Source: Cochliopodium minus
Taxonomy: Eukaryota > Discosea > Himatismenida > Cochliopodiidae
DNA: 32,352 bases
NCBI GenBank assembly: GCA_024220525.1
Contig: JAMYWO010000169.1
Location: forward strand, 1 to 32,352
Direction of reading: 5' to 3'
Shown here one piece after another: positions 5,567-32,352 of this stretch. A model generated the notes under the pieces. It saw only the letters and a list, made by a program, of their open reading frames with translations. It ran no database searches and had not been told where the DNA came from. The position numbers were made by a program, and so were the translations under genes. Within the stretch, counting starts at the first letter, position 1. The number at the start of each line of letters is the position of its first letter.

Positions 5567-5599
<33 letters not shown>

Positions 5600-8263: not shown

Positions 8264-8378
8264 CTTGTGATTTGTTTATATAACTGTTTACTTTTGGCTT
8301 CAATTTTTTATAAATTTTTTTTTTGTAAAAAAATTTTCTCTGAAATCTTTTTAATCAAATCAAATTAATATAATAAAA

Positions 8379-9721: not shown

Positions 9722-9914
9722 TTAATTTTTTAATTGAAATATTTATCGATTTTTTATTTTTTTAATTACAACCTTTTTACATAAAAAGAAATAAAAAAAA
9801 TTTTGGTAAAAACCTTCTTTTTCAAACTCCAATAGTTTCACAACAAAATTTTTTTTTTTAATTAAAAGATTCAAACAAAAAAAATGGTTCAAAAAAGTTT
9901 TTCTAGAAAAAAAC

Positions 9915-9969
9915 AAAAAAAAATAATGAAATACTTTCCATCTCATCAACATTGATGTAGATTTTCCAT
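9915..9969 (-). pseudogene. Relic of an F-box-SPRY first exon
   Basis: From 9969 the minus strand reads ATGGAAAATCTACATCAATG and then TGATGAGATGGAAAGTATTT. It is recognisable against the intact start ATGGAAAATGTTCCAAAGTT...AGATGGAAAATATTTGATTA of copy 2, but it is out of frame and has stops at once. Its upstream flank (9970-10085) matches the flank of copy 2 (8264-8378). The unit duplicated here was therefore the 5' end of a copy-2-like gene, the spacer, and the 3' end of a copy-3-like gene. Beyond about 9915 towards 9722 only A/T-rich sequence is seen, with no further recognisable exons. Confidence 0.5.
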
Positions 9970-10085
9970 CTTATGATATGTTTATTTAAGTATTTTTGTG
10001 ATCGATTCAATTTTTTTATTAAATTTTTTTTTTTAATAAATTTTCTCTGAAATCTTTTTAATCAAATCAAATCAATATAATAAAA

Positions 10086-10150
10086 TCAAAGGTGAATGTG
10101 ATCTAACACCCACTCTGATTTTTTGTATTTACTTTGAAAAGGATAAGGAT
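10086..10150 (-). CDS. C-terminal end of another copy-3-like F-box-SPRY gene, cut by the contig end
   Basis: The last 20 or so codons (ending KKSEWVLDHIHL and a stop) are identical to those of the gene at 8379. The exact match runs 10074-10150 against 8367-8443, 77 bases, and then the contig ends. It could be the 3' end of a true next tandem gene, since the flank further out (9950-10073) is similar but diverged, which favours a real second locus. Coding sequence upstream of 10150 is missing. Any reading frame continued across the N into 10152 is an artefact. Confidence 0.6.
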
Positions 10151-10151: not shown

Positions 10152-11383
10152 AGAAGATTTAGTGCCCAAAGAAGTTGAAGAAGAGGTAATAGGCTTGTTG
10201 CTAACTTTGGATTTGTTTTTAGAAGAGGTCTTTGAAGATTTGGTAGGTTTGATGAATTTATCATTGGAAGTATCAGAAGAATCAGATGCAAAAGAAACAG
10301 AAGAAGGATTAGATGTATTAATTAGATCAGATGTTAGATCAGATGTCACATCAGATGTTGTATCAGATGTATTTTTTGGATCGGAAGAAGAATTAGAGAG
10401 GAGATCAGGGACGGAGATGGGACCAGAGAAATCTGAACCCATACCCGTGATGATGTTGTAGACTGGCACTTTCTTTTCGGAGACGAGGAGGTGGTAGTCT
10501 TTCTCAAAGTCCACCACTTGGCCCAAACTTCTGGGAATGAACACATTTTTGAACACTTCCTCCTCTACTATTTCCTCGTTGGTCATATCTCCTCTTTTTT
10601 CTATAAATTCTTTAATCTACAATAAAAAAAAAAAAATTTAAAAATGTTGAAAAAAGTCAGAGAAATAAAGTTAAAAAAAAAAGACAAAAGAAATTAAAGT
10701 ATATCAAAACAAGAATAAAAAATAAAATGATCTGATGAAAAAAACATAAATAAAAAAGTTTTAATGTATACGAAATGAAAAAAAATAAAAAATTTAAAAA
10801 TAATTTTAAAAAACAATTAAAAATAAAAAAATTTTAAAAATAATCAAATGAAAAAATTAATTTCTTTTTACTTTTTCCAAATAAGGTTGAATTAAGGAAT
10901 CTTCAATGGTTGGATCGACCACAAAGTCGAAAAGCTGTTTGGTGGTCATTACTTTGACACCATGCTTCTTGAAGAAAATGTTGATATTTTCACAATCCTT
11001 TCTGAGAAACTCTAAAGCATTAGGGTGTTCATGTTCGACTGATTGGGAGACATCAATATAATATAATTTTTTTTTCCAATATCTTTTTTAAAAAAAAAAA
11101 ATTAAAATAAATAAAATAAAATAAAAAAATGGAAAATAAAAAAATAAATAAAATGAAAATAAAAAAATAAATAAAAAATTTTTTTTTTTTATTTACAGAA
11201 TATTGTATTCACTGAGATCAGCGTGTACTAATTTTGCTTTTTGGAAAATGTTTCTCACATCCACAACACACTCATAATACAATTTGATAGCTCTTTTAGT
11301 ATTGAAAGAAGCATCCTTCAAACGAGGAGCAGCAACACCATCCTTGCCTTAAAAAAGGAACATTAATTTTAAATTTTTTATTT

Positions 11384-11419
<36 letters not shown>

Positions 11420-12490
11420 AATATTTAATTTCAAATTTTTTATTTTATATTTTTTACCAATCAGTTCCATCAACAAAACATGTTGTCTAACTACAAAAGG
11501 CTGAGGACACCTAATGTCGATTTTTTTCAAACGAGAAAGATTTCTAAATTCTTTTTCAGCCCAAACTTTCACCATTTTTCTGGGGTTGTGTTTGGAGTAT
11601 CCTGTTCTGAATCTGAATTCTCCTGTTACGTATTTATCTCTGTCTTTAAACACTAAAATTGATGTTTTGTAAATTTTCACACCAAATTCTTGTCCATCTA
11701 ATTATTTCGAATATAAAAATTAAATATTAACAAAAAAAATTCAAATAAAAACATAAAAACATTTTAAAAAACGAAACAAATTAATCATAAAAAATAAAAA
11801 AAAATCATTCTATTTTATTGAAAAGGATTTCTCCAAAAAAAAAATTCTGTTTAATAATTTAAACAGAATTTAAAAACAAAATAAAATAAAAATAAATAAA
11901 CAAAAAAAAAAACAAAAAAATTTCATTTTAAAAAGGATGATAATAATTTTTTTTTTTGACCTTTGTTTGATGCATAATAAACATTCGCTTCCTAAATGAA
12001 AAATAAATATCCGATTGAGGAATTAAATTTAATTTTATTTTTTCAAAGATTATTTAACCTTTCCTGTACTTATACAACCCAAAACTTCATCTATTGCTCC
12101 ACCATTCAACAATTTGAATAAAATGATTCTCGTTCTATCATCCATCACCTGTTCAGTGGTGGCTCTATGAGATTTATCTTTTATTCTGTATCTATTCAAT
12201 TCTTGTTTCTTTTCATGCACTTTGATTACATTCTCCACCTTATTAGGCAACTCTAATTTATCCAAATGAACAAATTTATCGTATTTTTCTGTTAATGATT
12301 GTAATTTGCTTATTTGGTATTCATCTTTGTAAAATTGATTCTCATATTCTTCAAATTCGTTTGCATATTCTTCATCTTCATCATCTAGTTCATAATCTTC
12401 ATGATCATATTCTTCATTCTCTTCCAATTCATTGTTTTCCATTGTATTTACATTCACATTGGTCACGATGGTTTCAATTTTTGTCTCCAT
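10152..12490 (-). CDS. RIO1: RIO1 atypical protein kinase/ATPase, N-terminal and kinase part
   Basis: RIO1 is needed for late maturation of the 40S ribosomal subunit (release of factors and 20S rRNA cleavage). Exons: 12490..12059, 11991..11961, 11697..11458, 11347..11197, 11082..10872, then 10616..10152, which continues at 32275..31739. The joined gene is 2067 nt, 688 residues, in frame throughout; human RIOK1 is 568. Seen: an acidic N-terminus; P-loop STGKEANVYYA (about 141-151); [18 protein letters not shown] with the ATP lysine near 162; [27 protein letters not shown]; catalytic HADLSEYN (Asp about 278, Asn about 283); and [13 protein letters not shown], whose Asp (about 295) binds metal. 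All are RIO1 hallmarks, not RIO2 or RIO3. The C-terminal extension is Ser/Thr-rich with repeated TSD units. Exon 2 is only 31 nt. Confidence 0.95.
11843..11870. repeat. Perfect inverted repeat (hairpin) in RIO1 intron 2
   Basis: Two 12-base arms, AATTCTGTTTAA and TTAAACAGAATT, are separated by four bases. They sit within the 263-nt intron between RIO1 exons 2 and 3. It is a perfect stem in an otherwise simple A-rich tract, and its function is unknown. Confidence 0.6.
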
Positions 12491-12982
12491 TTTTTTTTTA
12501 TTTCTTGTTTTTTTATCAAATATAAAAAAAATAAGGCATCTTTATCAATATATCTCACCAAATCATTTCAAATAAATCATTAATTTTGCGGATGGAATAT
12601 AATAGAATCTTAAAAAGGATTTTTTATCTTTTTTCATAAATCCATTATTAGTGATTTTTATTGTTTAACAATATTGGCCAATTTCAATTATAATGAAAAC
12701 GAAACAATTGGAAATTCATTGAATGTGATCTGAAAATTTTTTTTAATAATTATTCAATAAAGTATAATTAGTAATTATTGAATCAAATGTCATATCAATT
12801 CAAAAATAATTTTTCTTTCTTCTTTTGGAGTAATATAAAATATTTTTTTGTTTGAAATGGAAGTGAGATAAAGAAAAATAAAAAAAAAATTATTTCAAAT
12901 TTTAATGCTCTTTTAATTATACAAAATTTAAAAGTAAAAGGAGACACATTTTATTTACATCTCATATTATATAGTTTTTATG
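12491..12982. other. Intergenic region between RIO1 and the Sel1-repeat gene
   Basis: About 490 bases, A/T-rich but less repetitive than the introns. It should hold the RIO1 promoter (RIO1 reads away to the left) and the 3' flank of the Sel1-repeat gene. No RNA gene, repeat or further coding segment was recognised. Confidence 0.5.
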
Positions 12983-13860
12983 TTAGTTTTTGCATGAAAT
13001 TTGGGATTTCTTCTTTACAGGAGCGTTCTTCATTTCATAAAGATAAATCTCAGCTAATTCTTCCATTGATTCTTCATTCCCCAAGGTATGCGCTTTTTCA
13101 TAGAGTTGTACAGCTTTTTTGATGTCCATTCTAATCAAATTTCCCAAACGATAAATTGATGCAAGTTTATACATCGCAAGGGAGTTTCCTTGTTCAATGG
13201 ATGAATTATAATAAGCAATTGCAAGTTGTGTATTTTCATAAAGGTAAATTTCAGCAAGACTAAATAAAAAAATAACGATATTAAATGACATTAAAAATAA
13301 CAATAAGAAAGAATAACAATATATGGAATGAAAATAACAATTTGATGAAATAAAATAAAAAATATAATAATGGATGTGCATATATTTTGATTTGAGTTAT
13401 TAAAATAGAAAAATGAACCCATTTAATTCACCTTTAATGATAATATATAATTTTGGTACCAAAATAAAAAAATAGAAAAAAATAAATAATACCTCAACAT
13501 AGCATTACTATTCTGGCTTAATTTGATAGAACCTTCGAAATAATGAAGGGAATGTTTTTTATCTTGTTTGAATCCTTCCCCATTCCACAAACACATACCA
13601 ATCAACCATAAACAATAACCCAATACATCTTTTTTATGCTCTATCGAGTTATTCTCTTGATAATATTCTGAAAAACTTTTGGCGGCAGAATATTTATCAA
13701 TTTCGGCATCCCATCCATAGTAATACTTGAGCCCTAAAGCCATCTTATTTCCGCTTTTGGAGTGTTTGACTGTCATGTTTTTTGCCTCCGCTTCATCTTT
13801 TCTGCTTTTTATACCAAAGAGAAAGCGAAAGATCAAATCCATCTCGTTGTTTTCTCTCAC
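12983..13860 (-). CDS. Small Sel1-like repeat (TPR-like) protein
   Basis: Exons 13860..13493 and 13259..12983 (645 nt, 214 residues; AG|T junction in frame). Sel1-like repeats are visible as A-x2-Y-x8-G-x5-L-x2-hY patterns: GNKMALGLKYYYGWD, LGYCLWLIGMCLWNGEG followed by QDKKHSLHYFEGSIK, NSLAMYKLASIYRLG, DIKKAVQLYEKAHTLGNEES, and MEELAEIYLYEM. Such solenoids are scaffolds for protein complexes (ERAD, signalling), and no catalytic residues are expected. There is no signal peptide or membrane segment, so it is probably cytosolic. It is shorter than most Sel1 proteins, and the specific partner cannot be told. The start ATG follows an A/T-rich intergenic stretch shared head-to-head with the gene at 14690. 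Confidence 0.78.
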
Positions 13861-14689
13861 ATTTTCATATTCTTTTTAAATGTTTTTAATTATTGATGCA
13901 TTAATTTTAATTCCTCAGTTTTTTTATCTTTGTTTATTACCTTTATCATCTCTCTTTGATGTATTCATTCTTAGGTTTTTTTTTAATATTTATTTTATTT
14001 TTGATGAAAAGGTTTTTTTTTAATTGAATTTGCATTTTAGGGAAAATTAACCTAATTCCTCTGCCTAAATATTCCTTTATAAATACGTATTTCTTTTATA
14101 ATTGAAAAGATTAACAGAGTTAAATAAAGAAAAAAAATCCAGCGTCAATTATTTTCTTCAAAGAAATCAACCAATCTTATCCATTTAAAATCAAAATTAA
14201 ATTTAAATCTAAAAGTATCACTTTGATCTCAATTGCTTGATCCTTTTCTTCCAAAGAATTTTTTATTTAGCGGAATTTTAGAAAAAAATTAAAAATTGCC
14301 TTTAATTAAATATCTGAACAATTAAATTTAGGATCTTGATTAATTTAATGAATCAACTGGTTGAAATAGATTCGAAAAATTTGAAATATAATTTTGAAAT
14401 AAATTTTTAAATTTTAAATTATTTAGTGAGTTAAAAAATAATTTTTGTGACGGTAGAAAAATTATTGTGATTGTTCACAAGAAACAGGAATAATATTTAA
14501 AGCATCTATGATTCCCTTGAAAAAAAAAATAACTAACGATTTAATTTACCAATGTTTTTGCAAAGAAATCAAAAATAAAACAAATTGTAAAAGTTTTCTT
14601 CAAAATATTGATATGAAGTTGTTTGTTTTGTAAATCTATTCAAATTATTTTGAAAAATTGAAACAAATGATAATTTAAAATTAAAAAAA
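13861..14689. other. Divergent intergenic region
   Basis: About 830 bases between head-to-head genes (Sel1-repeat gene to the left, DUF4209 gene to the right), so both promoters should lie here. I see no RNA gene, mobile element or conserved exon. T-rich stretches near 13990-14040 and A-rich stretches near 14110-14200 are ordinary for this genome. Confidence 0.5.
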
Positions 14690-17420
14690 ATGGAGAATGA
14701 TAAAATTTTCGAGTTTATAAGAGAGTCAGAAAATTCACAAAGATCAATTTGCAAAAGTTTTTGGCTGAATAAAGCAATACAACTCAATAAAGATCAAAAA
14801 ATGTCTGAAGAATTGAAAGAAAAAGAGAGAAATCTGGAGAGTGAAACCTGTTTATCAGATTTTTATAAGAAGATGTGGATGGATGATTTTAATAATAGGG
14901 ATCACAATCAACAAAAAAAGATTGAAGAATTAATTCTACAAAATTCAGGATGGACCCTAAATTTTAATTTGTTTGATTACAACAACTATAAATTTGAAGT
15001 GGAGAATTCTGACAAGAATTGGAAAATGGACAGACAATCTCTTCGTTTTCTTCAATCAAATCTGAGAATTATACATGAATACGTTATAAAAATGAGCAGT
15101 GAGAAATTTCTGGAAAGATATGGTTACATATCAGAGTATTTCGATATTTATAATTCAAATATGCTCTCCAAATCGTTTGATTGTAAAAGAAGAAGAAGAA
15201 ATTTTTTTTTTTTTTAAATTTAAATGTAAGCAAAGTGATCAAAAAGAAGAAGGGATTGGCTGCTGCACTTATGCTCACTTCCCACACAGAAGCTATATTG
15301 AGTGAAATATATGCCACAAAGAACAATTACAGACCAAGGAAGTTCAGGGAGCTCATGTTAGCGATCAAACAACAAAAAATAATCAACGAAAATTTTTTGT
15401 TCTGGATTGATGTTATAATGGGTTGTCCACCAGGTCTTAAAAAATTCATTTTCACTTTATTCATATGACTTTATTTTTTTAGTTTTATTATTTTTTTATT
15501 TGTTTATCATTATAAAATAATTTTTTTTATATTAGTTATTCTTATAATTTCTTATTTTTTTTTTTCTTTTTTATTTATTTTTATTTTTACAATTTCTTTT
15601 TTTTTTTTTATTTTATTTATTTTATTTTAAGGATTAAACTTGAGAAACATCATATGGCACGGATTTATTTATGAAGAGGAGTTTTTTGATGAATATTCCT
15701 CTTTTTTGCTGATTCTTTTGTTGAGTGTTGCCTATCATCTTTACCACCAAAAAATTCTTATCAAAAAGAGAGAAGAAAATATTTTTGAGACAAAAAAAAT
15801 ATCCGCCATATATCCCAATTACTCTTCGTATTTCGATTTTAAATGTCAAATATATTTTTTTTTTTAATTTTTCATGATTCTTTACTAAAGATAAAGAAAT
15901 TATTTTAATTCGTAATTATTATTTTAATAAATTTTATTTTTTAGTTAATAAAGAAATGATCAATGAAATTAGAAATTTGGTTGAAAACTCGTTTTTCATT
16001 ACAAAAGAGAGAAAAGAGGATTTTTCTTTTGCACTTCAGTGTTATTTGGACAATGAAAAGAGCATCTTTCTTTTTGTTCTTTTGCCCATTTTGGAACATT
16101 CCATTAGAAGAATAGTGGTTTGTGTCAATCACTGTGAAGGTAAAAAAAATTTAAAAAAGAAATGAAATTTCCACGAAAAAAAATTAAAAAAAAAAAAAGA
16201 TAGGATACTGACAATAGGACCTGACATAACTTTAACAACTGTAAAAATAATTTTAAGAATATTTTTTTAAAATTTTTTACAAGCCATTTTTACAATTCAA
16301 CAATTTTTAATTTATTTTAAAGATGAAAAAATTGACAAATGAGGAAATTGAAGTGGTGAAGAAAGGAGAGAAAATTAAAAACAAAATGTTGGAAGAGGTG
16401 GGAGAAAACTCTTTAGGGATGCTTTGGGACGTGCTAGTATTCGAAGAAGGGCTGAAATTGAGGGAGATGGTTTCACATTGTGTTGTCAATGTAGAAAAAA
16501 TTGATGATTCCGTTTTGAATCATCTTCTTTTCATTTTTATTCATTTTTGTTTTGTTTATTGTAATAATTTAGAGGAGAAAAACTCTTTTAATTTCTCTGA
16601 TAATTTTTTTTCTCTTCTTTTCGGAAAAATGCAAAATTATCGTCCTTTCTTTCACCCTTTAAATATTTTGAAAACCAAAGTTTCAATATGCAGAGAAAAG
16701 AAGAGGATTTGCAAAGAGATGTTTGATTTAAACAATCTCAATGGTATTATTGAAGAAGACAAAGGAATTATGGATGAAAAAGTGTTGGATTTTGTTTGTT
16801 TTTTCCAATTTGGTTCAGATGATTTTAGTTTTTACGTTTCTTCTGCTCTTTCTGACAAGTATAACAAAATAAACAATTCCTTGTCTTTTATTGAAGACTT
16901 GTGCCTCTTTCTGTCCGAAAACAATAACAACAAAGAGAAAGAGAAGAAGGAAAGGATGGAGAATGAAAAGTGGAACGATTTGTACTTTGTTGTAACCTTT
17001 TTATTTTCTGGAATCAATTTTTTATTCTCCAAATCAAATGAAAAAGAAACAAAAATAAAAAATCTAATCAAATCTTTCAACAAAAGTGAAAATAATACAA
17101 CTAGCAATACAAGTAGCAGTTCAAAGAAAAAAGTAAATGACAAAATAAAAAACCCTCAGTTTCACAAAACAAAGTCTCCTAACAATAACAATAGCAATAA
17201 CAATAATAAAAGTAATAACAATAAGAAAAGTTTTTCAAAACCTCTTTACGATACTTTTTTCAATTTCGCTCATCAGATTCACTCCAATCTCTTTTCTTCT
17301 AAAAAAGATACAAAAAAAAACTTTGCCTTTCTTCCAAAATTCCTTAAAACCAACGACGCTTTCATTCAAAGCTTTATAAAAGTGTTAACCAGGTTTTATG
17401 AAAAAAAGAAATCCAATTGA
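14690..17420 (+). CDS. ERMARD-like protein with DUF4209 (RNxxxHG) domain
   Basis: Homologues of ERMARD carry DUF4209, defined by the motif RNxxxHG; they are ER-membrane-associated and linked to RNA degradation, with unclear biochemistry. Exons: 14690..15182, 15236..15433, 15632..15844, 15945..16139, 16323..17420. Seen across the exon 2/3 junction (15433|15632): GCPPGLNLRNIIWHGF at about residues 226-242, with R235, N236, H240 and G241. Downstream: PILEHSIRRIVVCVNHCE (human-like LEHALR...VNNC) and LGMLWDVLVFEEGLKLREM, matching the human LWDFLNHQEGPRIRDHL region. The long last exon ends with an Asn/Ser/Lys-rich linker and a basic tail. The first four junctions are in frame. The exon 4 donor (phase 1, after 16139) does not fit the phase-0 acceptor at 16323, so that junction is uncertain. 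Confidence 0.75.
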
Positions 17421-17573
17421 AACTTAAAATTCAAATTGTGAAAGAAGATGTAAACGATTATGTGCCCTATTTACAAAAAAGAAATTAAAACCAAACTCTT
17501 TAAATTATTAAATAATATAAAAAATAAAAAAAATATTGTTTCTGTGAACCATCCAAAAATAATATTTGAAAGA

Positions 17574-19846
17574 ATGAATTTGGGTAAATAGAATTAATAT
17601 CAATCATAAATCTTTCATCCAAATAATTGTCTCAATATATCTCATTTATATTTTTTAACTAATTGAATCCTCAATCCAATTTTTTTCAATTCGGAAGTTG
17701 GTATATTTTATACAATAGTGGCGAAAGGATCGATTGCATTGATAGAACATTCACTGATCGAAGGAGATTTTTTGGATATAGCGAAGCATATGCTGAACAA
17801 AATAACCCCCAAAGATAAAAGGAAGAGTTTGAATGAAAAGAATGGAGAGTAATACAAATGATATAAGCTTATTAAAGGAATCCTTTAATTCTTTTTGTTG
17901 TATCAAATAAAAATAAAAAAATAGATTTGCAGTGCATTATATCATCGATCAAGATATCACATTCATGTGTTTTTCATCAACAATAATAAAATTGGGTAAA
18001 ATTTCCATTCCAAAATAAAATCTCATTAAGCTAAAAGAAAAATAAAAAAAAAAAAAAAAAAATTTAAAAAATTAAAATAAAAAAACATTTTTTAATTTTA
18101 AATCAAGGTGTTAGCTATGAATATTTAGAATCTGTCTCCAAAAAATTTTTCGAATCATTTGACAAGAATACAGTGCAAGAAGCAAAGGAGAAAGATCCTT
18201 CCATTTCTTCGTTTAAGGGAGTATTGAACTCGGAAATGGAAATTTTCGGACAGCTGAAGGGCGTTGATAAGTTGTTGCCCAAATCCGAAGAACCTTTGAA
18301 TGATAAAGGTCGGAAATAAAAAACTGATATGAAAAAATTTTTTATTGAAGAGGATATTTTAATTAATCGGAAATTTCTTTTCAGATTAAATTTAATAATT
18401 AAGTTAAAAAATATAATATAATATAATATAATATAATATAATAATAAAAAAAAAAATATCAATTTACAGCTTTATTAGCAGATATTAATTTTTAACTAAC
18501 ATAATTTAAACTGTTGTAAAATTTTGAAAATCTCTAAATATTATATTTAATTTATTAAATCAAAAAATATCAATTTAGATTGTTCAAAAAATTTTAAAAG
18601 TTGAAAATCACAAAGTTGATAGATAACAAATTTTTTATTTTTATTGTGTTTATAGTTTGATTATTTTTTATTTATTATTTATTTATTTTTTATTTTTTAT
18701 TTTATTTTTTATTTTTTATTTTTTTATTGTTTTCAAAGACGAAGGAATATTCTACTTTATAGTGGCAAAGGGAGACATAAGGTTAATAGATTATCAAACG
18801 TTAAAGGGAGATTATTTCAATTCTGCCAAATTCATGATGAACAAAATCCCCTCCCACAATCAACGAATCAGTTTCAAAGAGCAATCCAAAAAGTAAAAAA
18901 TAAAATGAAAATGAAAATAAATAAATAATAAAAATAAAAATAAAAGAAAAAATGAAAATAATAAAAAATAAAAAATAAAAATAAAAATAAAAATGAAAAT
19001 AACAAAAAATAAAAATAAAAATAAAAATAAAAATAATATTAAAATAAAATGAGAAATAAAATAAATAATAATAAATGAAATAAATAATTTTTCTTGTTAG
19101 TTTTTGTATTCACTACATTGTGGAGGAAGAATTAACATTCATGTGTTTTGCAACTTTAACTCACAAAATAGGTTTCAAAAATTAAAATTTTTTTTTTTTT
19201 GAATTTTTTAAATTTTAATTTTATAAAAGGAGTTTGTTATGAATTTTTGGAAAAGGCAATGTCTAAATTTATCAAAAAGTACAACCCCTCTGAAATAACA
19301 GATCCCAAAGACAGAGATCCCAAGTTCTACGAATTCGAAAACAAAATAATCAAATATTTAGGCATTTACGGAAAAGTCAAAAAAGGTTAAACAAAACAAA
19401 ATTTATTTAAAAATAAAAAATAAAAAATATATAGAAAAATAATATAAATAGAAAAAAATCAAAATAAAACAAACAAAAACAAAAATAATTTTAAAAAAAT
19501 TAATTTTTTTAAAAAGAAAATAAGATAATCCTTTCTCCCGAAGAAGAAGAATTCAAGCCAAGGGTAAACAGGGGAAGGGAAAAAGTGAAAAACAGAAAAC
19601 CCATAGTAGTTTCCAAGAATAGAGTAGATCCTGGTAGGAAAAGAGCCATCTTAGAAGACCTCAAACATGATCTTGAAAAACAATCGAAAAAATTTAAATG
19701 GGTTATTTATGCTTTATTAGTTCTCGTAAACTTTTTTTTTTAATTTTCTTTTTTTTTATTTTATTTTTCTAATAAAAAAGGCTTATTTTTACTTTGTTTT
19801 TGCGGTTTCTTGTGGTTGGGATTTTGGTTGTTTGGCCAAAGATTGA
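17574..19846 (+). CDS. Tandem double-longin protein with C-terminal membrane anchor, no clear SNARE motif
   Basis: Longin domains regulate membrane fusion and trafficking. Exons: 17574..17583, 17698..17848, 17925..17995, 18108..18308, 18739..18892, 19101..19171, 19230..19385, 19517..19725, 19781..19846 (1089 nt, 362 residues; frame closes). The first longin (about 1-90) reads GIFYTIVAKGSIALIEHS, MLNKI, FAVHYIIDQDITFMCFSS, LGVSYEYLESV. The second (about 145-235) reads GIFYFIVAKGDIRLIDYQ, MMNKI, FCIHYIVEEELTFMCFAT, IGVCYEFLEKA. Both use the same exon pattern: phase 1, phase 2, a 71-nt exon, phase 1. The second unit has no nearby ATG of its own, so I read one gene rather than two. The linker is rich in Lys/Arg/Glu, without the R-SNARE heptads. 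A hydrophobic segment (KWVIYALLVL plus AYFYFVFAVSC) ends the protein as a tail anchor. Confidence 0.7.
18411..18443 (+). repeat. AATAT-type microsatellite in an intron
   Basis: Five-base units of ATAAT/AATAT type are repeated about six times inside the 430-nt intron that separates the two longin units. It is simple-sequence DNA with no sign of function. Confidence 0.7.
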
Positions 19847-20028
19847 TTAACTAATCCTTAAAATTTTCAGTTTTGAAAAATAAAAATGCTTACATTTCGA
19901 AATACATTAAGAATTTTAACAAAAAACAAAAAACAAAAACAAAAATAAAGAAATTTGTATAAAATTGAGTTTTTTTTTTTTAATAACAAATAATAAAAAT
20001 ATAAAATTTTTTTTTGAGGAAAACATTT

Positions 20029-22402
20029 TTAGTTATCGCTCTTATGAACACTAGATTTAAAATTAAGATCACTGTCAAACTCCTTGTCAGAAATTTCTTC
20101 TTTAAGCTGACTGTTATTGTTTCTAGATGTCATTGGAGTCAGAGTCTTACTTGAACTTGCTCCACTAGGATGTCTGAAAGTGAAAACAAGAGGAACTGAA
20201 ATCAAAAGTTGTGCTCTAAATAAAACAATATGTGAGAGAACATTTTTTATGAGAAAAAATTTTTTAAACAAAAAAATAAAAAAAACTTAAATAAAAAAAC
20301 AAAAAAAAACTTAAATAAAAAAGTACAAAGTGAGAATAATGAAAAAAGCAAGTAAACTCTTATGAGATGGAGGTTGCAACACTGCATTAACAACCAAAGC
20401 AATAGCAGAAATCAACATTCCAAAAGCGGACAAAAAAACAGTGAAAGCGACCCTTCCTATCGTTCTTTTTTTGAACTTTTTCATGGAAGTGATGACTTTG
20501 AAACCTCCGACAGTAAGAAATACAACCAAAATAAAGAAAATAGCAGCAGGAACGAGACTAGCAGCACGAATATAAGGAACAGTCGTCCTGTTAATTGAAA
20601 AAACAATACTGAAAGAGATAAAAATACCCAACAATGCTATTTTTTTTATAAAAAAAAATATTTAAAATTAAAAAAAATATTTTATTAAAAAAAATTAATT
20701 GCTTTTTAAAAAATTTTTAAAAAATAATTTTTGTTTAAGTAAATTTTTAAAAATGATGTTAAAAATATTAAATTCTTAAAAATTGTTTTTTACCAATACT
20801 CGTTATGACGAAGGGTATTTTGAAGTGTGAAAGACCAGGGTAGGACATTTTCTTTGAAATCAACAATTCTTGGAAAAAATAAGCTAGGGAAAGACAAGAT
20901 ATTGTCACAAATGCAGACGCAATAAAGTTCATAGTGATATAAAAACTGTAAACATACCTAAAATAAATGGAAATAATTTATAATAAAATAAAAAAAAAAA
21001 TATAAAAAAAAAAATTTATTTTTTTGTATTTACCATCTTCTTACTGAATAAGGATCCAATGTAAAGATGATATTCAATATCAAAGAGAGATTGATGAAAA
21101 TTAAGGATAATTGTGCTGCGGTTGGTTTTAATCCTTGTTGCATCGCGAATAGAATCTGTCCTCTTATTCCAACTATCAAGGTGCTGATCAAGATCACTTC
21201 CAAAAAGATCTGATAAAAGATGATTCCACCTCCTCCTGTCATTTTGATCCAGATATTTTCGTTTTCTATCACTGTAATTAGCACAGGGATGAAAGAAGAG
21301 TTTGCTGCCATTGAATTTTTCGTTATTTCTCCTATTATCAACAAGAAATCCTTCATTGGTAGCCATAATTGTTATTATAAGCTTTAATGAATTTTATACA
21401 TCAATAGAGATGTCCAAAATTTTGGAACAGTTTAAAATTTGTTGGTTAAAAATTAATATCCGCTAATATAGTGTAAATTTTAGAAGAATATTCAAACTGC
21501 AAGATTATAAATCAAAGGTTATTTGATGCAAAAATCTAAATTTTGAATTATTCTAAATTTCTTAGCATCGAATTTTTGAGTTCTGTTTATATCAGATCAT
21601 TTCAAGTATAATGCTTAAAATCATGGATTAATCTAGATTAATGTATAATTAAAATCATTCCAAAATTAAAATTTTTTTAAAAAAAAGATATACCATCGGG
21701 ATATATCAAGTTAATTATATATATGGCATTTATCTTAATGGTATATCAAATTAATTGTTAATATATTTTTGAACAACAGTTAATTATTTGGAATTTGATA
21801 TTTTTTTATGTTTATAATTTTTGATTGGGAATTACATTTGTGTTTATAAATAGGATTGGGACGGACTGATTGTATCTATTATTGTTATATTTTGTTGTTG
21901 CAAGATAATCAGGTACATTCCCACCAACAATAAATACAGCAGAAACTTTTGATTTTTTTGCTACTTCAGCATGTGTCTCCAAATCACATCCTCCTTGTGG
22001 TAGAACAATTGTGGCAAATCCTTCCAATGGAACTTGGCTATTGAGCATGGTACAAGACTCCATATCCTTTTGTGTAGATCCTAAAATTTGAGGATAAAAA
22101 ATTTGAAATCTAAAAATCCGCATTGAGGGATTAAATGAGATGCTCTTGAAATTTGATTAAATTATTTTTTTAATAAATTAAAATATTAAAAATTTTTTTT
22201 TTATCATTTGAATTTATATCTCCAATTTCTTCTTACCTCCTGGGAAAATGGGAACAGTGAAAGCTGTCCATGTTCTTTTTGATGTATGTAAAAACTTTGG
22301 GGTATGGATATTGATCGTGGTATTATCCAATGGATTGTAAATGATGGATGATCGACATATACTGGCCAAAATAAAGATAATTATCGATATTTTTCTATAC
22401 AT
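20029..22402 (-). CDS. PA-domain seven-transmembrane protein, copy 1
   Basis: Likely a surface or endosomal receptor-like protein; the ligand is unknown. Exons: 22402..22237, 22080..21836, 21350..21034, 20957..20794, 20636..20327, 20215..20029 (1389 nt, 462 residues; every phase agrees). The start MYRKISIIIFILASICRS is a signal peptide. Residues about 25-150 look like a protease-associated (PA) domain: GFATIVLPQGGC, AEVAKKSKVSAVFIVGGN, QSVPILFINTN. Seven hydrophobic segments follow at about 180-202, 214-236, 245-270, 287-310, 323-345, 355-378 and 385-415, with the basic loop GGFKVITSMKKFKKRTIGR between 5 and 6. The Ser/acidic tail is probably cytosolic. There are no peptidase motifs (no GxGD, no HExxH). 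The arrangement recalls TOM1/THH1-type 7TM proteins only loosely. The 485-nt second intron carries a decayed MITE. Confidence 0.78.
21405..21490. repeat. Decayed second copy of the hairpin MITE
   Basis: The stretch TAGAGATGTCCAAAAT, then GAACAGTTTAAAATTTGTT, then ATATCCGCTAA lines up end to end with the element at 4054 (TAGGGATGTCCAAAAA, ACAACAGTTTAAATTTTGTT, ATATCCGCTAA). The right terminal repeat is eroded and no flanking duplication is clear. It lies in intron 2 of the first PA-7TM gene. The shared internal text outside the inverted repeats shows common descent rather than a chance hairpin. Confidence 0.65.
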
Positions 22403-22865
22403 CTGTTTGATTTCCAATTTTTTTTATTTTTAATTTTAATTAAATTAATAATTATTAATAATCTTAAAAACCGGAAGCAAAGAAGATTTTAAATTCTTTA
22501 AAAAGAAAAAGAAAAAATAGTAAAAGTGAAGTGATGCTTTGTTCATTAATTCGGAAAATTAAAATCTAAATTGAAAAACATAAGAAAGGGATTTGAAAAA
22601 AAAATAAAAGCAATCTAGCTTGGAGAAGCAAGTGAAAAGAGGAATAGGAACAAAAGTTCAATTAATCTTCTAATTCAAAAAAAAAAGTTTCTTGCTTTTT
22701 GAAAAAGGTTAGTCAATGTGTTTAAAAAAGGTGAGAGTAAATTTATGTAAGTTTTTTGTTCGAAAAAGATCTAGGAAGTAACGTAGTCCCTTTTCAATTT
22801 AAAATTGTTTATTTATTTTTAATATACTAAAATACATAATTTCAAAATTTTGTTTTGGTTTTTTT
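22403..22865. other. Intergenic region between the two PA-7TM genes
   Basis: About 460 bases containing the promoter of copy 1 and the 3' flank of copy 2. It is A/G-rich in the middle (22500-22680), with no coding segment, RNA gene or repeat that I can recognise. Confidence 0.5.
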
Positions 22866-24777
22866 TTAGTTTTCCTTGGTGGGAGCATTAGAGTTTATAA
22901 AGTTGAGATTATAATCAAATTCTCTATCAGATATTTCTTCTTTTAGTTGACTGTTATTATTTTTGGTTGTGACATTAGAAGTCATATTCTTTTTAGATAT
23001 AATTTCACTGTAACTAGGATGTCTAAAAGTGAAAACAAGAGGAACAGAAATTAATAACTGAGCACTATAAAATAAAATTAATTAGAAAAGATTAAAAATT
23101 AAATTGAAAAAAAAAAAATAGTAAAAATAAAATTAAAAAAAAAATATTTTACATTATAAATATAACAAAAAATCCTATCAAAACTTTTTCAGTTGGGGGT
23201 TGTAAACTTGCAAATACTAAGAGAGAAATGGCAGAAACTAACATTCCAAGCACAGAACAAAAAACACTCAAAGCAACTCTTCCTATTGTTTTCTTTTTGA
23301 ATTTTTTCATTGAAGTCAACACTTTGAATCCTCCAAAAGAAAAGAAAATGATCAAAAAAATATAAACTCCAGCCGGAACGTATTGAGATGCTCTCAAAGC
23401 ACCAACGTTGTATGTATTTCGACAAAATATTACAATGAAGGATAAAAAGATTCCAAAAATAGCTAAAAATTGTTTTGAAAAAAAAAATTAATATTTAATA
23501 ATTAAAATTAATTAAAATTATAATTAATTAATTGAAATTAAAATTAATTGAAATTAAAATTAAAAAAAAATTATTTGGATTTATATTTATTACCAACACT
23601 CGTAAAGATGAAAGGTATTTTGAAGTATGAAAGACCTGGATATGACATTTTCTTCTGCAGTAATAATTCTTGAAAGAAATAAGCGAGTGAAAGTGATGAA
23701 ATGTTCAAAAAAACAGTTGCCAACAAATTAGCAGTTAAACTTAATCCATACACATACCTTAAAAAAAATTAAAAAATAAAATTTAATTTTTTTTTTTTCT
23801 CTGTTACCATCTTCTTATTGAAAAGGGATCAATCACAAAGATTATGTTGCAAATTAAAGAAAGATTAATGAAAAATACGGATAATTGTGCTGCAGTTGGT
23901 CTTATTCCTTGTTGCAACGCAAATAAAATCTGTCCTCTTATTCCAAAGATGAGGGTGGTTATCATTATCAATTCTAAAATGATCTGGAAAAAGATTATTC
24001 CACCTCCTCCTGTCATTTTGATCCATTTATTTTCATTTTCTATCACTGTAACAAGGACATGGATAAAAGAAGAATTTCCTGCTTTTGAATTTTTTGTTAT
24101 TTCTCCCAATATCTTTGAGAAATCCTTCATTCATTTTCAATTTAATAAGATTAATCGTCAAAAAAAATTAATTTAAATATTTCTTGGTTGATATTATTAG
24201 GATAGGGAATTACATTTGTGCTCATGAATAGTATTGGGACAGATTGATTGTATCTCCCATCATTATATTTTGTTGCTGCAAGATAATCGGGTGAATTCCC
24301 GCCAACAACAAATACAGCAGAAACTTTAGATTTTTTTGCCACTTCTCCATGTTGCTCTGTATCACATCCTGCTTGTGGTAAAACAATTGTGGCAAATCCA
24401 TTCAAAGGTATTAAACTTTTCAGATTGCTACATGATTCCATATCCTTTTGGGTAGATCCTAAAAGAGTGAATTGATATTTATAGAAAAAGCAAATTTGTG
24501 GAATTTTTTTTTTTTTTATTTCTAAAGTGAAGATTATGAATAATTCTTCAAAAATTATTTCCGAACTTGAATTTTCTTATCACTTGAATAAAAAAAAACT
24601 TTATAAACCTGCTGGATAGATTGGAACTGTAAACGATGTCCATGTTCTTTTTGATGTATGCAAAAACTTTGGGGTATGAATATTGATAGTTGTATTATCA
24701 AAAGGATTGTAAATGATTGATGATTGAGATAAAGACACTAAAAGCATGAATATCATTAAATTTTTGAAAAGATCCAT
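22866..24777 (-). CDS. PA-domain seven-transmembrane protein, copy 2
   Basis: Exons: 24777..24609, 24458..24214, 24124..23808, 23757..23594, 23462..23153, 23064..22866 (1404 nt, 467 residues; frame closes). Exons 2-5 have exactly the same lengths as in copy 1 (245, 317, 164 and 310 nt), with identical phases. The start MDLFKNLMIFMLLVSLSQSS is a signal peptide. The PA-like domain reads GFATIVLPQAGC, EVAKKSKVSAVFVVGGN, QSVPILFMSTN. The membrane part begins KMTGGGGIIFFQIILELIMI and keeps RGQILFALQQGIRPTAAQLS and GGFKVLTSMKKFKKKTIGR. The tail keeps NNNSQLKEEISD, a motif also present in copy 1 (NNNSQLKEEISDKEFD), so this cytosolic stretch is probably functional. Cys of LPQAGC and a second Cys of the first PA exon (MESC) are kept in both copies and may form a disulfide. 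Confidence 0.78.
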
Positions 24778-25122
24778 TTTTAATTGGAAATTATTCCACC
24801 AAGATTTTTTTTATTTATTCAAATTTTTTCTTTTATTTTTTTTTTTTGTAAAGAAGATCTAAAAATATTTAAAGTCAATTTATTTTGTTTGAAACGTTTG
24901 TATTTCGAAAAAATATGTATCAAATCATCTTGAACCTCAAATTTTACTTTTAAAAAATATATTTTAACCTTTTTGATTTTCTATAAACTAGTATAAATTT
25001 TCGTTTTGAGATTTACATTTTAACTTTAATCGAAATTCGAGATTATCTTTTTAACGAGAAAACTATTCACGAAAATACTTCTTTTATATATTCAACTATA
25101 AATATAAAAAAATTGAAGTGAT
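24778..25122. other. Intergenic region upstream of PA-7TM copy 2
   Basis: About 345 bases between the PA-7TM start and the F-box relic. It should hold the promoter of copy 2. Nothing else was recognised. Confidence 0.45.
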
Positions 25123-25300
25123 AATGGAGAATCTCTCAAGTTTATAAGATGGAAATTATTTGAAAGTTAACGAAATGATCAACTATACAGCAATTGGTAA
25201 AAAAGATTTTTAATTAAGAGGAAATGAATCAAATGAGATAAACCAATTAGAAACAAAGAATCCTCTCATCTTTCCATTTGATGCTTAAGGGGAGAAATAT
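25123..25300 (+). pseudogene. Relic of an F-box-SPRY first exon
   Basis: The stretch ATGGAGAATCTCTCAAG, then TTTATAAGATGGAAATTATT, then AACGAAATGATCAAC copies the first exon of the intact gene at 25555 (ATGGAGAATATTCCAAAG, TTTATAAGATGGAAAATACT, AACGAAATGATCAAC). A one-base loss brings an early stop, and about 45 bases of the middle are deleted. AAAAAAGATTTT and later fragments near 25200-25300 probably continue the exon. No SPRY exons follow. Confidence 0.6.
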
Positions 25301-25554
25301 GTAAGGAAGTGAAGCAATTTGTTGGGAGAAGAATACTTTACAATCATCTCATTAAAAAAAAAAAAAAAGGGTATAACTGATATCAAACATCCTTGAAATA
25401 ATAATACAAAGTATTACATTAATCTGTAAAAAAAAAATATTTGGCACCTATCTTCCAATAATCAATAAAACTCTTATAATATTATTATAATAAAAGAAAT
25501 AAATAAATAATATAAAAAAAATTTTTGAACCTATTTTGGGTGATATAGAGGATA

Positions 25555-26785
25555 ATGGAGAATATTCCAAAGTTTATAAGATGGAAAATACTTGATTATT
25601 TAGAAATAGAAGATAAATTGAAATTAGGTCTTCTCAATAAAAAATATAACGAAATGATCAACGATAATAACTATTGGAAGCAATTATGCAAAAAAGATTT
25701 TCAATATGAAGAGAAAACTTCCCCTTTTATTAATAACAATCTACAAACAAATGATGGAGAAATACAAATCAACTTTAAAGAAACCTACATCTCCTTTTAT
25801 AATACACCTTTTTTCCCTTTTCAACAAAAAGATCTGGCAAGTGTATCTATTCATACATTAGAACCATACAGATTAAAAAAGAGTGGAAGTAATTCTGATC
25901 CTAAATATTTAAATTTCTTAAATATATTTAATTAAATTTGAAAAGATTGGTTGAATGTGAGCTCTATGATACGTAAAAATCTTTTTTTTTTTTTTATATT
26001 TTCATTTATTTTCATTCTGATTTAATTTGAAAAGCATATTCAAAAGGAAGAAAATACATTGAATTGAAAATCAAAAATTCTGGAGGCAAGGCAATTTGTT
26101 TGGGAATATCTTCTTATTTCTTACAAATAAACTCCGAGAAGAATATTTCATATGATAAACTAGCTCTCAGCTACAATCCTTTTTCAAGTAAAATAAATTT
26201 TTTCAAGTTTTCTGATTTGATGAAATAAATATTAAATATTTATTTATTTATTTTTAAAGAAAAAATTTGGAATGAGGGAAAAGAGTTTGAACCACATTTA
26301 GTCCCAAAGTTTCAAGATGGCTCCACGTTTGGGATTTTGTTTGATTTTGAAAAGACTTTGTCTATTTTCTTTTTCATTGATAGGTTAAAAAAAAAACTTT
26401 TTTTTAAAACAAAAACTGAACTAATTTTATTAAAAAGAAAATTTTTCTGTAAGCCTCTTTCTTTCAAAGGAAACTTCAATTTTTATCCTGCTTTTGTAAA
26501 AAAATTTTTATTCTTTGTTTATATATGAAATAATTTTTTTTTGTTAAAAATTATTTTATTAAATGAAAGGGATTGGGAAATGATAGTGAAGTAGAATTTG
26601 TAAATACTCATTCTTTTTTCCCTCCTATTACTGAGCAAATGGAGAAGGAGAAGTCTTTGTTAAACTTTGGCTCCACCGAGGAAACTCTCTCCATGCAAAA
26701 AAATAAGGAGACAGAAAAATACAGACTTTGTGAATTATCTTTACAGAAAGTTTCCAACAAAAGAAAATTGGATAAAACATATTAA
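25555..26785 (+). CDS. F-box-SPRY protein, copy 4
   Basis: Exons: 25555..25888, 25946..25972, 26035..26187, 26260..26383, 26438..26495, 26570..26785 (912 nt, 303 residues; frame closes). The F-box-like start is MENIPKFIRWKILDYLEIED, then NKKYNEMINDNNYWKQLCKK. The SPRY-like part reads GRKYIELKIKNSGGKAICLG, FGILFDFEKTLSIFFFIDR, KPLSFKGNFNFYPAF and GNDSEVEFVN. It is the plus-strand member of the family whose other copies are on the minus strand at 4676-8263, with the same introns, including the 27-nt second exon. Exon 3 is 153 nt instead of 150, one extra codon. It probably works as an SCF-type adaptor. It lies 148 bases upstream of the MMS19 start, in the same direction. Confidence 0.8.
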
Positions 26786-26933
26786 AAATAATATGTTAAA
26801 AAATATAAAGATTTAAATGATAAAAAAAAAACAATAAATCCTTTATTTCTTTTCACAACTCTATTTTGGATTTGATCATTGTTTTTTTCATTGATTTCAA
26901 AAAATTACCAAAAAATTAAAAAAATAAATAAAA

Positions 26934-29900
26934 ATGGAAATTAAAGAATTAATTGAGAATTATGATGCGTTTATAAAAAACACAAATAGAAATGAATCTA
27001 TCAAAAATATACTCAATGGTAATTATCATTTCAACAAAAAATTTAATTCTTCCTTTTTATACTGTATTAAAAATAAATATATTTGTTCTTCACACAAAAT
27101 AAAAACATCCCTCTTTATTATTAATTGATACATTAGTGATTGAAAAGAAGGAATTGGATATACAAAGGATAGTGGAATCATTGAAAGATTATTTGGTTAA
27201 TAGCGAAGATACTATTAGATCATCGGGGATATTGATACTATCAGAGATAATAAGCAAGATGCCACAGATCATACTCGATTATAACTCCATCAAATTCATC
27301 GTGATCTTCTTGTGCGATAGATTGAAGGATGATACATGTATACCAAATGTTATCAAGGGATTATTATCCGTTGTAAATCAATATAAATTGGAAAAGGAAG
27401 AAATAATTTTGATAAGCACCACGTAAAAAAAAAAACTTTAAAAAAGCTTTATTAAAATAATAAAATTAAATAAAAATTTCATAAAATGAAAAAAAAAATA
27501 TGGAAACATTGCATGTCTAAAACAAATACATTAACTTTTTTTTCCTTCAGAATATTTAAAGATTTATATGCTCAATCGCAAGTCCAACAAACAAGACATG
27601 AATTGATATCCATATTAAGTATTTTACTTAGAAAGTATACTGAAGGTAAACTAAAAAGATTTAGGGACCCACCTTGAATTTTTTTTTTTTTTTAATTTAT
27701 TGGATTTTTATTATTTTTATTATTTTTATTTTTATTTTTATTTTTTTATTATTTTTATTTTTTTATTTTTTATTTTTTTTTATTTTTTTTCATTTTTTTT
27801 TAATTGAAATAGTTGTCAAACAATTTGACCATGATTTCGTGTACGGATATATACAGACAATAGACTCTGAAAGAGATCCTAGAAATCTGCTTCTTGTCTT
27901 CGAAACCACCGAATACATTTTAAAACACTTGAAAGGGTTTGCAAGGTGATTATAAATTAAAATGATACTTTATTTATTTTAATATTTTATTTTTTGGATC
28001 TTTTTGATTTTGTTTGATTTTTATTTTATATTTTTTTATTTATTACATTTTTTTTTTTATTTTTTTATTATTTATTTTTTTATTATTATATTTTTTTATT
28101 TGTTACATTTTTTTATTGTTTATTGTTTATTGTTTATTTTTATTTTGAAAGATTTACGGAAGATTTTTTTGATGTGACATCTTGCTATTACCCTGTCAAT
28201 TTCACACCTAGAGAAACAGATACGGTCACCAAAGAAATGCTTTCAGGTGCTTTGAGAAATGCCATGACAGGAAACAATTTGTTTGCAGAGCATCTCTTCC
28301 CTTTTTTGTTTGAAAAATTAAGTGGATCCATTTTGGGTAAAAAATAATATTTTTTAAAATAATTACACTAAATAAATTAACAAATAAAATTAGACTTTAG
28401 AAATTTCGAAAATAAATAAAACTCATAAAAATATTCAATTTAAAAAATTCAAAATCTAGTTATCTTTTTTTTGAATTATTTTAATTATTTTAATTATTTT
28501 AATTATTTTTAATTATTTGATTATCTTTTACTTTATTTTTTTAAATTCTTTATTATTTATTAATATATAAAATTTACTTTTCTTTTTATTTTTATTTTAA
28601 ATAATTTGTATTATTTTTATTATTTTTTATTAAATTTACATTTTAAATAATTATTTTTCCACTCAAAGAAACAAAGCTAGAAACAATGGAAGTGATAGTG
28701 TACGCACTAGAAAGGTTCCACAGCTCCGTAATCACCCCATGGGTCGAAGAGATCTGGACAACACTCCGCCGAGAAATAATGGACACCACTGACAACTTGG
28801 TAAAGAAAGAAGCATTAGACACAATAAGCAAAATAAGCAAACATTTGTCGCTAAATAATATCTCCGACGATGAAAATAATTCTCCGCTATTTCTTTTTTT
28901 GTCTCCTCTTGTCTCTCACTCTGTTCATGAGTTGGATTGTCCTGATACCAAGACTGCTGTTGTTTCTGCCAACATTCTTCATCATGCTTCCAGGTCCTCC
29001 ATCACTTCTTGCAATTTTGTCTTCAAGTAAATATTTTTATTTTTGATTTTTTAATTTTTATTTTCTATTTTTTTATTTTTTTATTTCTTTCATTTTGATT
29101 TTTTAATTTTTTTTTAATTTCATTTTATATTTTTTGTTTATTTTCATCTTGATTTTTTATCAATATTCATTTTTTATTTTTTGTTTTTTATTTTATTTAT
29201 TATTTTTTCATTTATTTTTATTTTTTATTTTTTATTTTTTATTTTTTGTTTTTTTGTTTTATTTTTTGTTTATTTTATTTTCATATTTTATTTTTTTTTT
29301 CTTTTGATTTTTTATTATTATTCATTTTGATTTTTATTTTTATTTTTTTTTACTTTTTTTTTCTTTTTTTTTTTTTCATTTATTGATTTTTTTTTGGAAG
29401 ATCTGCCATCCCAAAGTTGCTTCATGTTTTGAACTCTATTGATACCATCGGAAACAAACAAATAGTGTTGGAATTATTGAATGGATTTTTGGATTCTGCT
29501 CTCTTTGCTGCCAACCAAAATAAATGTAACCTAAATACATATTTAATTTATTTTTAATATTATTTTATTATTTATTATTTTTTTATTTTTATTTTTTGAT
29601 TTTGGTTTTATTTTTTAATTATTTTTTTATTTTTATTTTCTTTTCTTTTCATAAAGTGAAAGCAAAAGAACATCCTTTGTTTGCTTTCTTTGAAAAATTG
29701 TTTGAAATTTATTTCCTCAATTTGAGTGGTGCAACTTCTGATTTGAGGTATTAATAAAAAAAAAAAAGAATAAAATAAAATAAAATAAATCAAGAAATGA
29801 ATCTTTTAAAAATGAATTATTTAAAAAATTATCAATAAAATTATTTAAAAATGTAAAAAATAAAAATTATATTATAAAAAATATTTAATAAAAAAAATTA

Positions 29901-30796
29901 AAAATTTCATAAAATAAATCGATGAAAAAAAAATTTAAAAAAAATCATTTAAAAATGTAAAAAATTTTTAAAAAGAAAAATATTTTAATAAAAAAATAAA
30001 AAATAAAAAATAAAATCATTTTTAAATAAATCAAAAAATAGATCAACATCAGTGGAGGGAATATCAAAATTGATGGATTGTTCAATAATGACAACGAATG
30101 AAGGATTTTTTGATGAAAAAAAGAAAGAGGGAGTGATCAAATCCCTCTCTGAGATGCTTTTGAACGATTATTCCTCCAAAGTCAGGAATCAATGTCTCGT
30201 TTCTCTCGTTGTTCTTTCTAAGAGTGAAGTTTCCAGTGTCACTTCTTTTGCTTTGAATACTTTGTGGGAATTTTTAGGGAAAAAAGGTAAAAAATAAAAT
30301 ATATGGCTTTCATTGAAACAAGTGAATAAAAATTTATAAAATTAAAAAAATAATGTCAAAAATATTCTTAAACAAAATTAAAAAAAAATTAAAAAATACT
30401 TAAAATAATAAAAAATACTTATAATAATAAGTAATTTGATAAAAAAAAAAACAAAAAATAAAAACAAAAATTAAATTAAAAAATTAAAAAATATAAAATT
30501 AAAAATTAAAATGAAATAAATAAATTAAAAAAATAAAATTAAAAATGTTTTCAAGTAAATAAAAATAAAAATAAAAATAAAAACAATAGTCCAAAATGAA
30601 ATATTAATTTAAATATTTTGTTTAGAGAGCAACGAAAAAGAGATTCCATTGTCAGTTCCAGAAGGAGAAGAAATTTCAAGCGGGAAAAATTTTGGACAGA
30701 TCTTGAACTACTTGTCTGCTTTCTCCTTGAACGAAAACCTTTTCTCCTCCATTTTCACCAAAACTTCTCAAATCTTTATTTCTCATTTAAATGATT
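26934..30796 (+). CDS. MMS19: MMS19, N-terminal and middle part (continues beyond the contig end)
   Basis: Exons: 26934..27018, 27137..27422, 27551..27645, 27813..27945, 28152..28336, 28669..29026, 29401..29525, 29657..29747, 30042..30286, 30626..30796 (1774 nt, 591 codons plus one base; all phases agree). Family landmarks: IVESLKDYLVNSEDTIRSSG, ILSEIISKMP, FLCDRLKDD, then the diagnostic DVTSCYYPVNFTPRETDTVT (human YFPIDFTPPPND), LRNAMTGNNLFAEHLFPFL and FEKLSGSILGETKLETMEVI. The last exon here ends with a phase-1 donor at 30797 into a T-rich tract that reaches the N at 31200. The C-terminal 419 residues are at 1-3081. The sum, 1010 residues, is close to human MMS19 (about 1030), so little is missing, perhaps one exon. 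Confidence 0.93.
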
Positions 30797-31125
30797 GTAA
30801 AAAAAAAAAAAATTTATTCTGAATTTTTGTTATTTTTTCATTTTTTCATTTTTAATTTATTCACTTTCAATTTTTTTATTTTTTTATTTTTTTCTGGCCA
30901 AATTTTTTTTATTTTTTCTGGCCAAATTTTTTATTATTTTATTTTTTTTAAATTTTATTTTATTTTTATTTTTATTTTTTGTATTTTTATTTATTTTTGT
31001 TTAAATTTTATTTTATTTTTATTTTTATTTTATGTTTATTATTATTTTTATTTTTTTTTGTATTTTTATTTTATTTTATTTTATTCATTTTATTTTATTT
31101 TATTTTATATTTTTATTTTATATTT

Positions 31126-31199
31126 TATATTTTTATTTTTATTTTTATTTTTATTTTTATTTTTATTTTTATTTTTATTTTTATTTTTATTTTTATTTT
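31126..31199 (+). repeat. ATTTTT hexanucleotide tract ending the contig
   Basis: About twelve uninterrupted copies of a six-base ATTTTT unit run into the N at 31200. It lies in the unfinished MMS19 intron that begins at 30797. A tract longer than the assembly word size would explain why the contig stops here. Confidence 0.85.
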
Positions 31200-31370
31200 N
31201 GTAAAAGGGATTATATTTTTGATTTTGGTGATATTCAATTAATTATAAAGCCAAATAAAAATTTGGATTGAAGAAATTCCCAATAATCAAATCACTCCGA
31301 AATGATTTATTATTAATATTGGGTGGGATTGGTTATGTTTTTATGATTTATATAAATGATTCATTCTTAC

Positions 31371-31523
31371 TTGAGAGATTTGTGGGGATATGGGATGATC
31401 CTTGCTATCCTCAAAGGGATATTTGAATAAGATTGTAGGGATTAATTTTTTATCAATTTTCTTCAAATTATCAATATATTCAGTTGTCCCCCATAAAATG
31501 AAACTAACAACAAGATTCTGCAT
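31371..31523 (-). CDS. First exon of an unrecognised gene
   Basis: It begins ATG at 31523 and reads MQNLVVSFILWGTTEYIDNL, then KKIDKKLIPTILFKYPFEDS and ends PISPQISQ at a good donor GTAAGAATG after 51 codons, phase 0. The sequence is conserved-looking (balanced codon use, no low complexity), but I do not recognise the family. The next exon is not seen between 31201 and 31370, and probably lies beyond the contig edge at 31201. It is read towards the left, away from RIO1's 3' end region, in the same direction as RIO1. Confidence 0.45.
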
Positions 31524-31738
31524 TTCCTTCTTCCCTTTTTTTTTTTATTTTCAATATGAATGCTCTTTATGAGAAAATTTACCTTTTTTTAACTTTGATA
31601 ATTATAATTTAAGAATAGGTTTGATATATTGAACAGAACGAATTGAAAAATGTTGATTTTATTTTATTCTCAATATAATTCGACGATATAATGAATAAAT
31701 AAATAAATAAATAATAAATAATATTTCTTGAATAAATT

Positions 31739-32352
31739 TTATTTTTTTGATTTAGATTTCTTTTCTAATTTCTTTTTGACATGCTTTTTCATTTTGGTGG
31801 TTCTTTTTTCTTTGTTTTCAGATCTAACTTGCTTTTTGTTTTCTTTTCTAAGTTTCTTGAGCTCTTCCCTGGTATAATTGGATCTTTCCTTCTTAGTAGG
31901 AAGTTTAACTCTATCATCATCACTATCTTCTCCCTCATCACTATCTTCTTCATCATCGTCCAAAGAATCTTCTGTTTCTTTTTCTTTTTGAGAAGAAGGA
32001 TCCAAGTTTGTGGAGCTTGTTAAAGTATTTTCCACATTTTTGTTGTTTTCTTGTTCTAATTTCTGTTTTACATTTTCATTGGAAATCTCTTCTTTTTTTA
32101 CTTCTTTTTTATCAGAGTTTTCTTCTTGAGAAATTGTTTTGTTTTTTAAATCTTGATCAAGGGAAGGATTAGAAGATGAAGGTTTTTTCTCAGAAAAGGA
32201 AACTTTTTTCACTTCTTTTTTCTCTTTATCGTTAGTTTTTTTGAGATTAGATTTGAGGTTAGATTTTTCATCAGAAGAAGATTTAGTGCCCAAAGAAGTT
32301 GAAGAAGAGGTAATAGGCTTGTTGCTAACTTTGGATTTGTTTTTAGAAGAGG
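31739..32352 (-). CDS. RIO1: RIO1 kinase, C-terminal part
   Basis: This stretch is the end of the last RIO1 exon. Positions 32352-32276 repeat 10228-10152 exactly, and unique sequence then runs from 32275 to the TAA at 31739. It reads a Ser/Lys-rich linker (GTKSSSDEKSNLKSNLKK), an acidic block (DDDEEDSDEGEDSDDD), then the conserved RIO1 end TREELKKLRKENKKQVRSEN, KRTTKMKKHVKKKLEKKSK, which parallels the human ending KKEHKKMVKEAQREKRKNK, IPKHVKKRKEK. The basic tail probably helps in nuclear import or rRNA contact. An ATG-initiated reading at 32293 is not a real start; the frame is open upstream into the kinase. Confidence 0.92.
   Translation of the reverse strand, partial: SSKNKSKVSNKPITSSSTSLGTKSSSDEKSNLKSNLKKTNDKEKKEVKKVSFSEKKPSSSNPSLDQDLKNKTISQEENSDKKEVKKEEISNENVKQKLEQENNKNVENTLTSSTNLDPSSQKEKETEDSLDDDEEDSDEGEDSDDDRVKLPTKKERSNYTREELKKLRKENKKQVRSENKEKRTTKMKKHVKKKLEKKSKSKK

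Follow-up and report, generated by a model that had tools for sequence, protein, structure and literature searches.

De Bruijn assemblers leave exact identity of a fixed length at contig ends where the graph branches, and neighbouring contigs from SPAdes-type assemblers have k bases in common; a terminal direct repeat of length k is likewise the usual mark of circular contigs. At the scaffolding stage, small pieces are often misplaced, and scaffolders such as SSPACE print one n for a negative gap. PMC3504050 describes negative gaps as those in which adjacent contigs are expected from mate-pair distance to overlap, while their sequences show no overlap, and PMC5368935 also discusses negative gaps. 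The locus described here resembles both systems, with differences. Its pieces show the exact end identity of de Bruijn contigs, here over 77 bases, but these ends stand about 22 kb from each other in the printed scaffold instead of adjoining. As in the "negative gap" misjoin of PMC3504050, pieces are printed side by side without overlap while the real neighbours overlap; here, however, the whole order is inverted with orientation kept, and the inversion is repeated in other scaffolds. Two genes carry the comparison. One is the atypical kinase RIO1 (RIOK1), whose kinase domain and following conserved segment match human RIO1, but which here has a long low-complexity tail; the other is MMS19/Met18, with both Pfam MMS19 domains, colinear with the solved structures 6tc0 and 8usp. 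Each differs from its known relatives in being split, and in both cases the split is due to the assembly alone.

The window, which is the whole stretch of 32,352 bases analysed, comprises bases 1-32352 of scaffold C169 in a draft assembly of 44,654,751 bases (44.65 Mb) and 598 contigs. Its G+C content is 23.1%, and from its introns and eukaryotic gene families the source was read as an AT-rich eukaryote. It contains two Ns, both single, which separate three pieces, A, B and C, in the printed order (Table 1). Since C169 is 78,771 bases long and the 1,500 bases past position 32352 read N, this position closes piece C and not the scaffold. The evidence set out below gives C-B-A as the true order, that is, the printed order A-B-C fully reversed with the orientation of each piece kept.

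Table 1 Features of the window; exon bounds are approximate where stated.
Feature	Position	Strand	Remarks
Piece A	1..10150	+	placed right of B, last of three; ends at N 10151; carries MMS19 C-terminal half at left end
Piece B	10152..31199	+	placed in the middle
Piece C	31201..32352	+	placed left of B
Single-N join A/B	10151	.	printed neighbours are not true ones; order contradicted by RIO1 and MMS19
Single-N join B/C	31200	.	printed neighbours are not true ones; B is truly followed on its right by A
RIO1, N-terminal part and kinase domain	10152..12490	-	five open exon stretches, approximate bounds; last exon runs off left end of B
RIO1, C-terminal tail and stop codon	31739..32352	-	in-frame continuation across the overlap
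MMS19, N-terminal half and probable middle exons	27103..31199	+	PF14500 match; 6tc0 alignment; runs off right end of B
MMS19, C-terminal half	380..2940	+	exons, approximate bounds; PF12460 match; 6tc0 alignment
Right terminal 77-mer of C	32276..32352	+	exact copy at left end of B
Left terminal 77-mer of B	10152..10228	+	exact copy at right end of C
77-mer also found at right end of A	8367..8443	+	exact match to 10074-10150
Right terminal 77-mer of A	10074..10150	+	3' part of second F-box-like gene copy; probably a graph branch point

The original prediction had proposed that one RIO1 gene is printed as two halves in the wrong order, with the kinase part at the left end of B and the tail in C, joined in frame through a 77-base identity, and in all of this it was borne out. 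The identity between the right end of C and the left end of B is exact and the match stops at 77 bases. The last exon in B (10616-10152, 465 nt) continues through this overlap into 32275-31739 (537 nt including the stop) with the frame kept, so that beside C the frame runs beyond B for 178 more residues to a stop at 31739. As printed, the frame crosses the N and stops after 20 residues in A, encoded by the 3' end of a gene of an F-box-like family. The exons in B matched the Pfam RIO1 family (7.9e-64), with human RIO1 as the nearest solved relative over the kinase domain and the conserved segment that follows (1.4e-104), and were closer to RIO1 than to RIO3 (353 bits vs 216). The tail is of low complexity: no RIO match was found for it by itself, and the alignment of its last residues with the C-terminus of human RIOK1 was not significant (i-Evalue 20). 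An annotation of the printed order would yield a single truncated kinase plus an orphan low-complexity tail rather than the two broken kinases that had been foreseen.

A second full RIO1 locus, which the original prediction had named among the observations that would refute it, was sought in the readable assembly and no second copy was found. The one other RIO-domain gene encountered, on C26, scores nearly the same against RIO1 (243.6 bits) and RIO3 (238.7 bits); it was considered as a second copy and set aside as a different paralogue. A DNA search of the readable assembly with C and the start of B likewise returned no other copy of either, the hits being the sequences themselves, the 77-base overlap and 17 further short matches within C, none longer than about 105 bases. 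No match to a phage collection was found for 10152-13900. The exact overlap, the preserved RIO1 frame and the lack of a second copy in the readable assembly together support the placement of piece C before piece B.

The position of piece A is given by MMS19. In the readable assembly, the MMS19_N family (PF14500) had its sole match in B, at C169:27172-28368 (+), and MMS19_C (PF12460) its sole match in A, at C169:2368-2883 (+); no second MMS19 gene was found there. The joined exons of the right end of B matched MMS19_N (7.8e-53) and those of the left end of A matched MMS19_C (3.2e-38), so that both domains follow one another in a single gene when B is placed before A. In this order the joined halves are colinear with the solved MMS19 6tc0 (residues 51-178 and 211-427 in B, 809-987 in A) and likewise with Met18 8usp. 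The first 509 residues of the joined protein come from B and the MMS19_C match spans residues 489-834, starting just before the join; the last two MMS19 exons in B, taken alone, matched no MMS19 profile. Because the gene is split between the right end of B and the left end of A on the same strand, piece A lies downstream of piece B. The earlier view that the pieces are misordered therefore stands for C before B, by the overlap and the RIO1 frame, and was incomplete in that A, too, is misplaced, as MMS19 shows. Combining RIO1 for C-B with MMS19 for B-A yields the order C-B-A, and two split genes thus suffice to order three pieces without any reads.

The ends of the pieces were also compared directly. 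Among the 32,122 77-mers of the window, only two kinds occur twice, and each has a copy at a piece end: that shared by C and B, and that at the right end of A, for which identity to 8367-8443 again stops at exactly 77 bases. Twenty other stretches of the assembly served as a control (158,369 77-mers, with each stretch searched for repeats within itself), and in these repeated 77-mers were confined to C500; this near absence excludes chance for the repeats in the window. When suffixes and prefixes of A, B and C were compared in both orientations, the sole overlap of at least 8 bases was that of C before B, with its reverse complement. The readable assembly yielded no third copy of the C/B 77-mer. 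The fixed length of these end repeats suggests that short reads were assembled on a de Bruijn graph with k=77. Between B and A no 77-base overlap was found, and B closes with a simple repeat (31128-31199, AT-rich, short tandem units). Similar AT-rich short tandem repeats were seen at starts or ends of C350, C400, C480, C510, C540, C550, C560 and C598, and such repeats at the ends of pieces and scaffolds probably stop assembly. In C500, 1,162 77-mers are repeated from positions 4037 and 5678 onward, with a spacing of 1,641 bases in the first three pairs, which is an exact direct duplication of about 1.2 kb if contiguous.

Eight single-N joins were seen in all. Four are testable, namely the two in C169 and one each in C580 and C598; those in C101, C171, C183 and C350 were left out. 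At 4/4 testable joins, in these three scaffolds, the pieces are reversed with orientation kept: on one strand, the piece printed on the left comes after the one printed to its right. C580 and C598 are other one-N scaffolds and were read end to end. In C580 (1-11232, N at 9762), 974 alignment columns are shared by the right end of the second piece and the left end of the first, with 908 matches, 9 mismatches and 57 gap positions (44 in the first piece, 13 in the second); 25 of the 36 indel events lie next to a homopolymer of the base concerned, and the overlap closes in an exact 77-mer (11156-11232 = 854-930). Bases 1-853 of C580 look like an unpolished long-read extension added to a k=77 short-read contig. 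In C598 (1-10038, N at 2378), a far-right exon joins a far-left exon with matching intron phase. These two exons matched a paralogue on the minus strand of C43, the far-right exon (query 2-56) at 51445-51600 (38%, 5.9e-5) and the far-left exon (query 62-251) at 50605-51177 (27%, 6.8e-11). Both matches lie in one reading frame and in the same order, each giving a 426-aa stop-free frame, and the C43 paralogue is taken to be one open frame. In C580 and in C598 alike, the piece printed second is the true first piece.

Further scaffolds were inspected less completely. Twenty stretches sampled at scaffold starts comprised 160,041 readable bases, with 2/20 all N and six opening with a long N run; the readable bases held four internal gaps, all single Ns and none longer. 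Left and right ends were compared in 14 further scaffolds, six of them with N at the left end, and 7/8 usable scaffolds were without a suffix/prefix match. C350 (N at 2158), read in part, is among these seven, its start and end not overlapping; in C400, also read in part, a 45-base end match lies in a simple repeat and was not counted. C500, C570 and C590 were read whole and contain no N.

That the end of C equals the start of B would also be expected of a circular molecule made of B and C, or of a 22 kb tandem repeat, in which the adjacency B-C would be as real as C-B, with the circle closed through the 77-base repeat. A circular contig should run from its right end into its own left end; by MMS19, the right end of B continues into A instead, with one place found for each half of the gene, and the readable assembly yielded no other copy of C or of the start of B. 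We therefore regard a circle or tandem array as very improbable. RIO1 by itself is compatible with a more modest error, in which C, a small piece of the kind that scaffolders often misplace, was put in the wrong position while A and B were joined correctly (true order A-C-B). This reading was rejected once MMS19, split on one strand across the right end of B and the left end of A, had set A downstream of B, and little credence is left to it.

Two genes lying in permuted segments with a direct repeat at one junction recall the germline genomes of some ciliates, in which segments are truly scrambled and flanked by short repeats. Both breakpoints here fall on an N, the repeats measure exactly 77 bases at each of two ends and again in C580, and the overlap in C580 has indels resembling long-read error. 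Because each break falls on an N and on either an exact 77-mer or a simple repeat, we reject scrambled-gene biology, which has almost no probability. The arrangement is an assembly artefact without biological novelty, in which RIO1 and MMS19, both ordinary housekeeping genes, are cut into distant halves, and the printed order A-B-C is almost certainly a scaffolding error of the draft assembly, for which we infer an inverted link direction as the cause.

Such an error probably arose as follows. Branch points and simple repeats would have broken the locus into pieces running C-B-A on one strand. The scaffolder would then have paired the right pieces in the right relative orientation with every adjacency flipped, giving A N B N C. 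One link-direction setting was presumably inverted, for example through a confusion of inward with outward read pairs, and the inverted direction would give negative computed gaps and hence single Ns. With orientation right in all three scaffolds and order alone wrong, an inverted link direction fits better than lost strand flags, which would have left some pieces flipped. The software step is a guess, as distance filters would ordinarily discard a mis-set pair orientation on a piece of 21 kb. The repetition of the reversal across scaffolds suggests one systematic cause over chance misjoins.

We lean slightly towards the wider reading that nearly every single-N join in this assembly is printed inverted with orientation kept, from one scaffolding setting. 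By rough extrapolation from the four joins per 160,041 readable bases, such joins may number about 1000 assembly-wide. If this is true, many "split" or "missing" genes would be products of one setting and correctable wholesale. Wherever a join is affected, this assembly would give wrong gene counts and synteny and mislead claims that genes were split or lost. Each single-N join in this assembly deserves checking. Neither this assembly nor any report of the same reversal was recognised in a literature search.

Other genes and repeats were noticed along the way. Several similar F-box-like genes lie at 6355-10150 and 25549-26782 of the window and at C183:76996-77038, and the repeated 77-mer at the right end of A sits in the 3' end of one of them; the two that were scanned gave weak Pfam F-box matches, under the curated cut-off. 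Two tandem similar genes on the minus strand (20314-22423 and 22869-24810) probably encode membrane proteins, and a Pfam scan of part of one of them matched no family. Adjoining the N of C171, a dispersed repeat of about 170 bases (C171:3000-3170) has at least 60 matches, one of them to itself and the rest at 67-81% identity (40 of 608 candidates scored).
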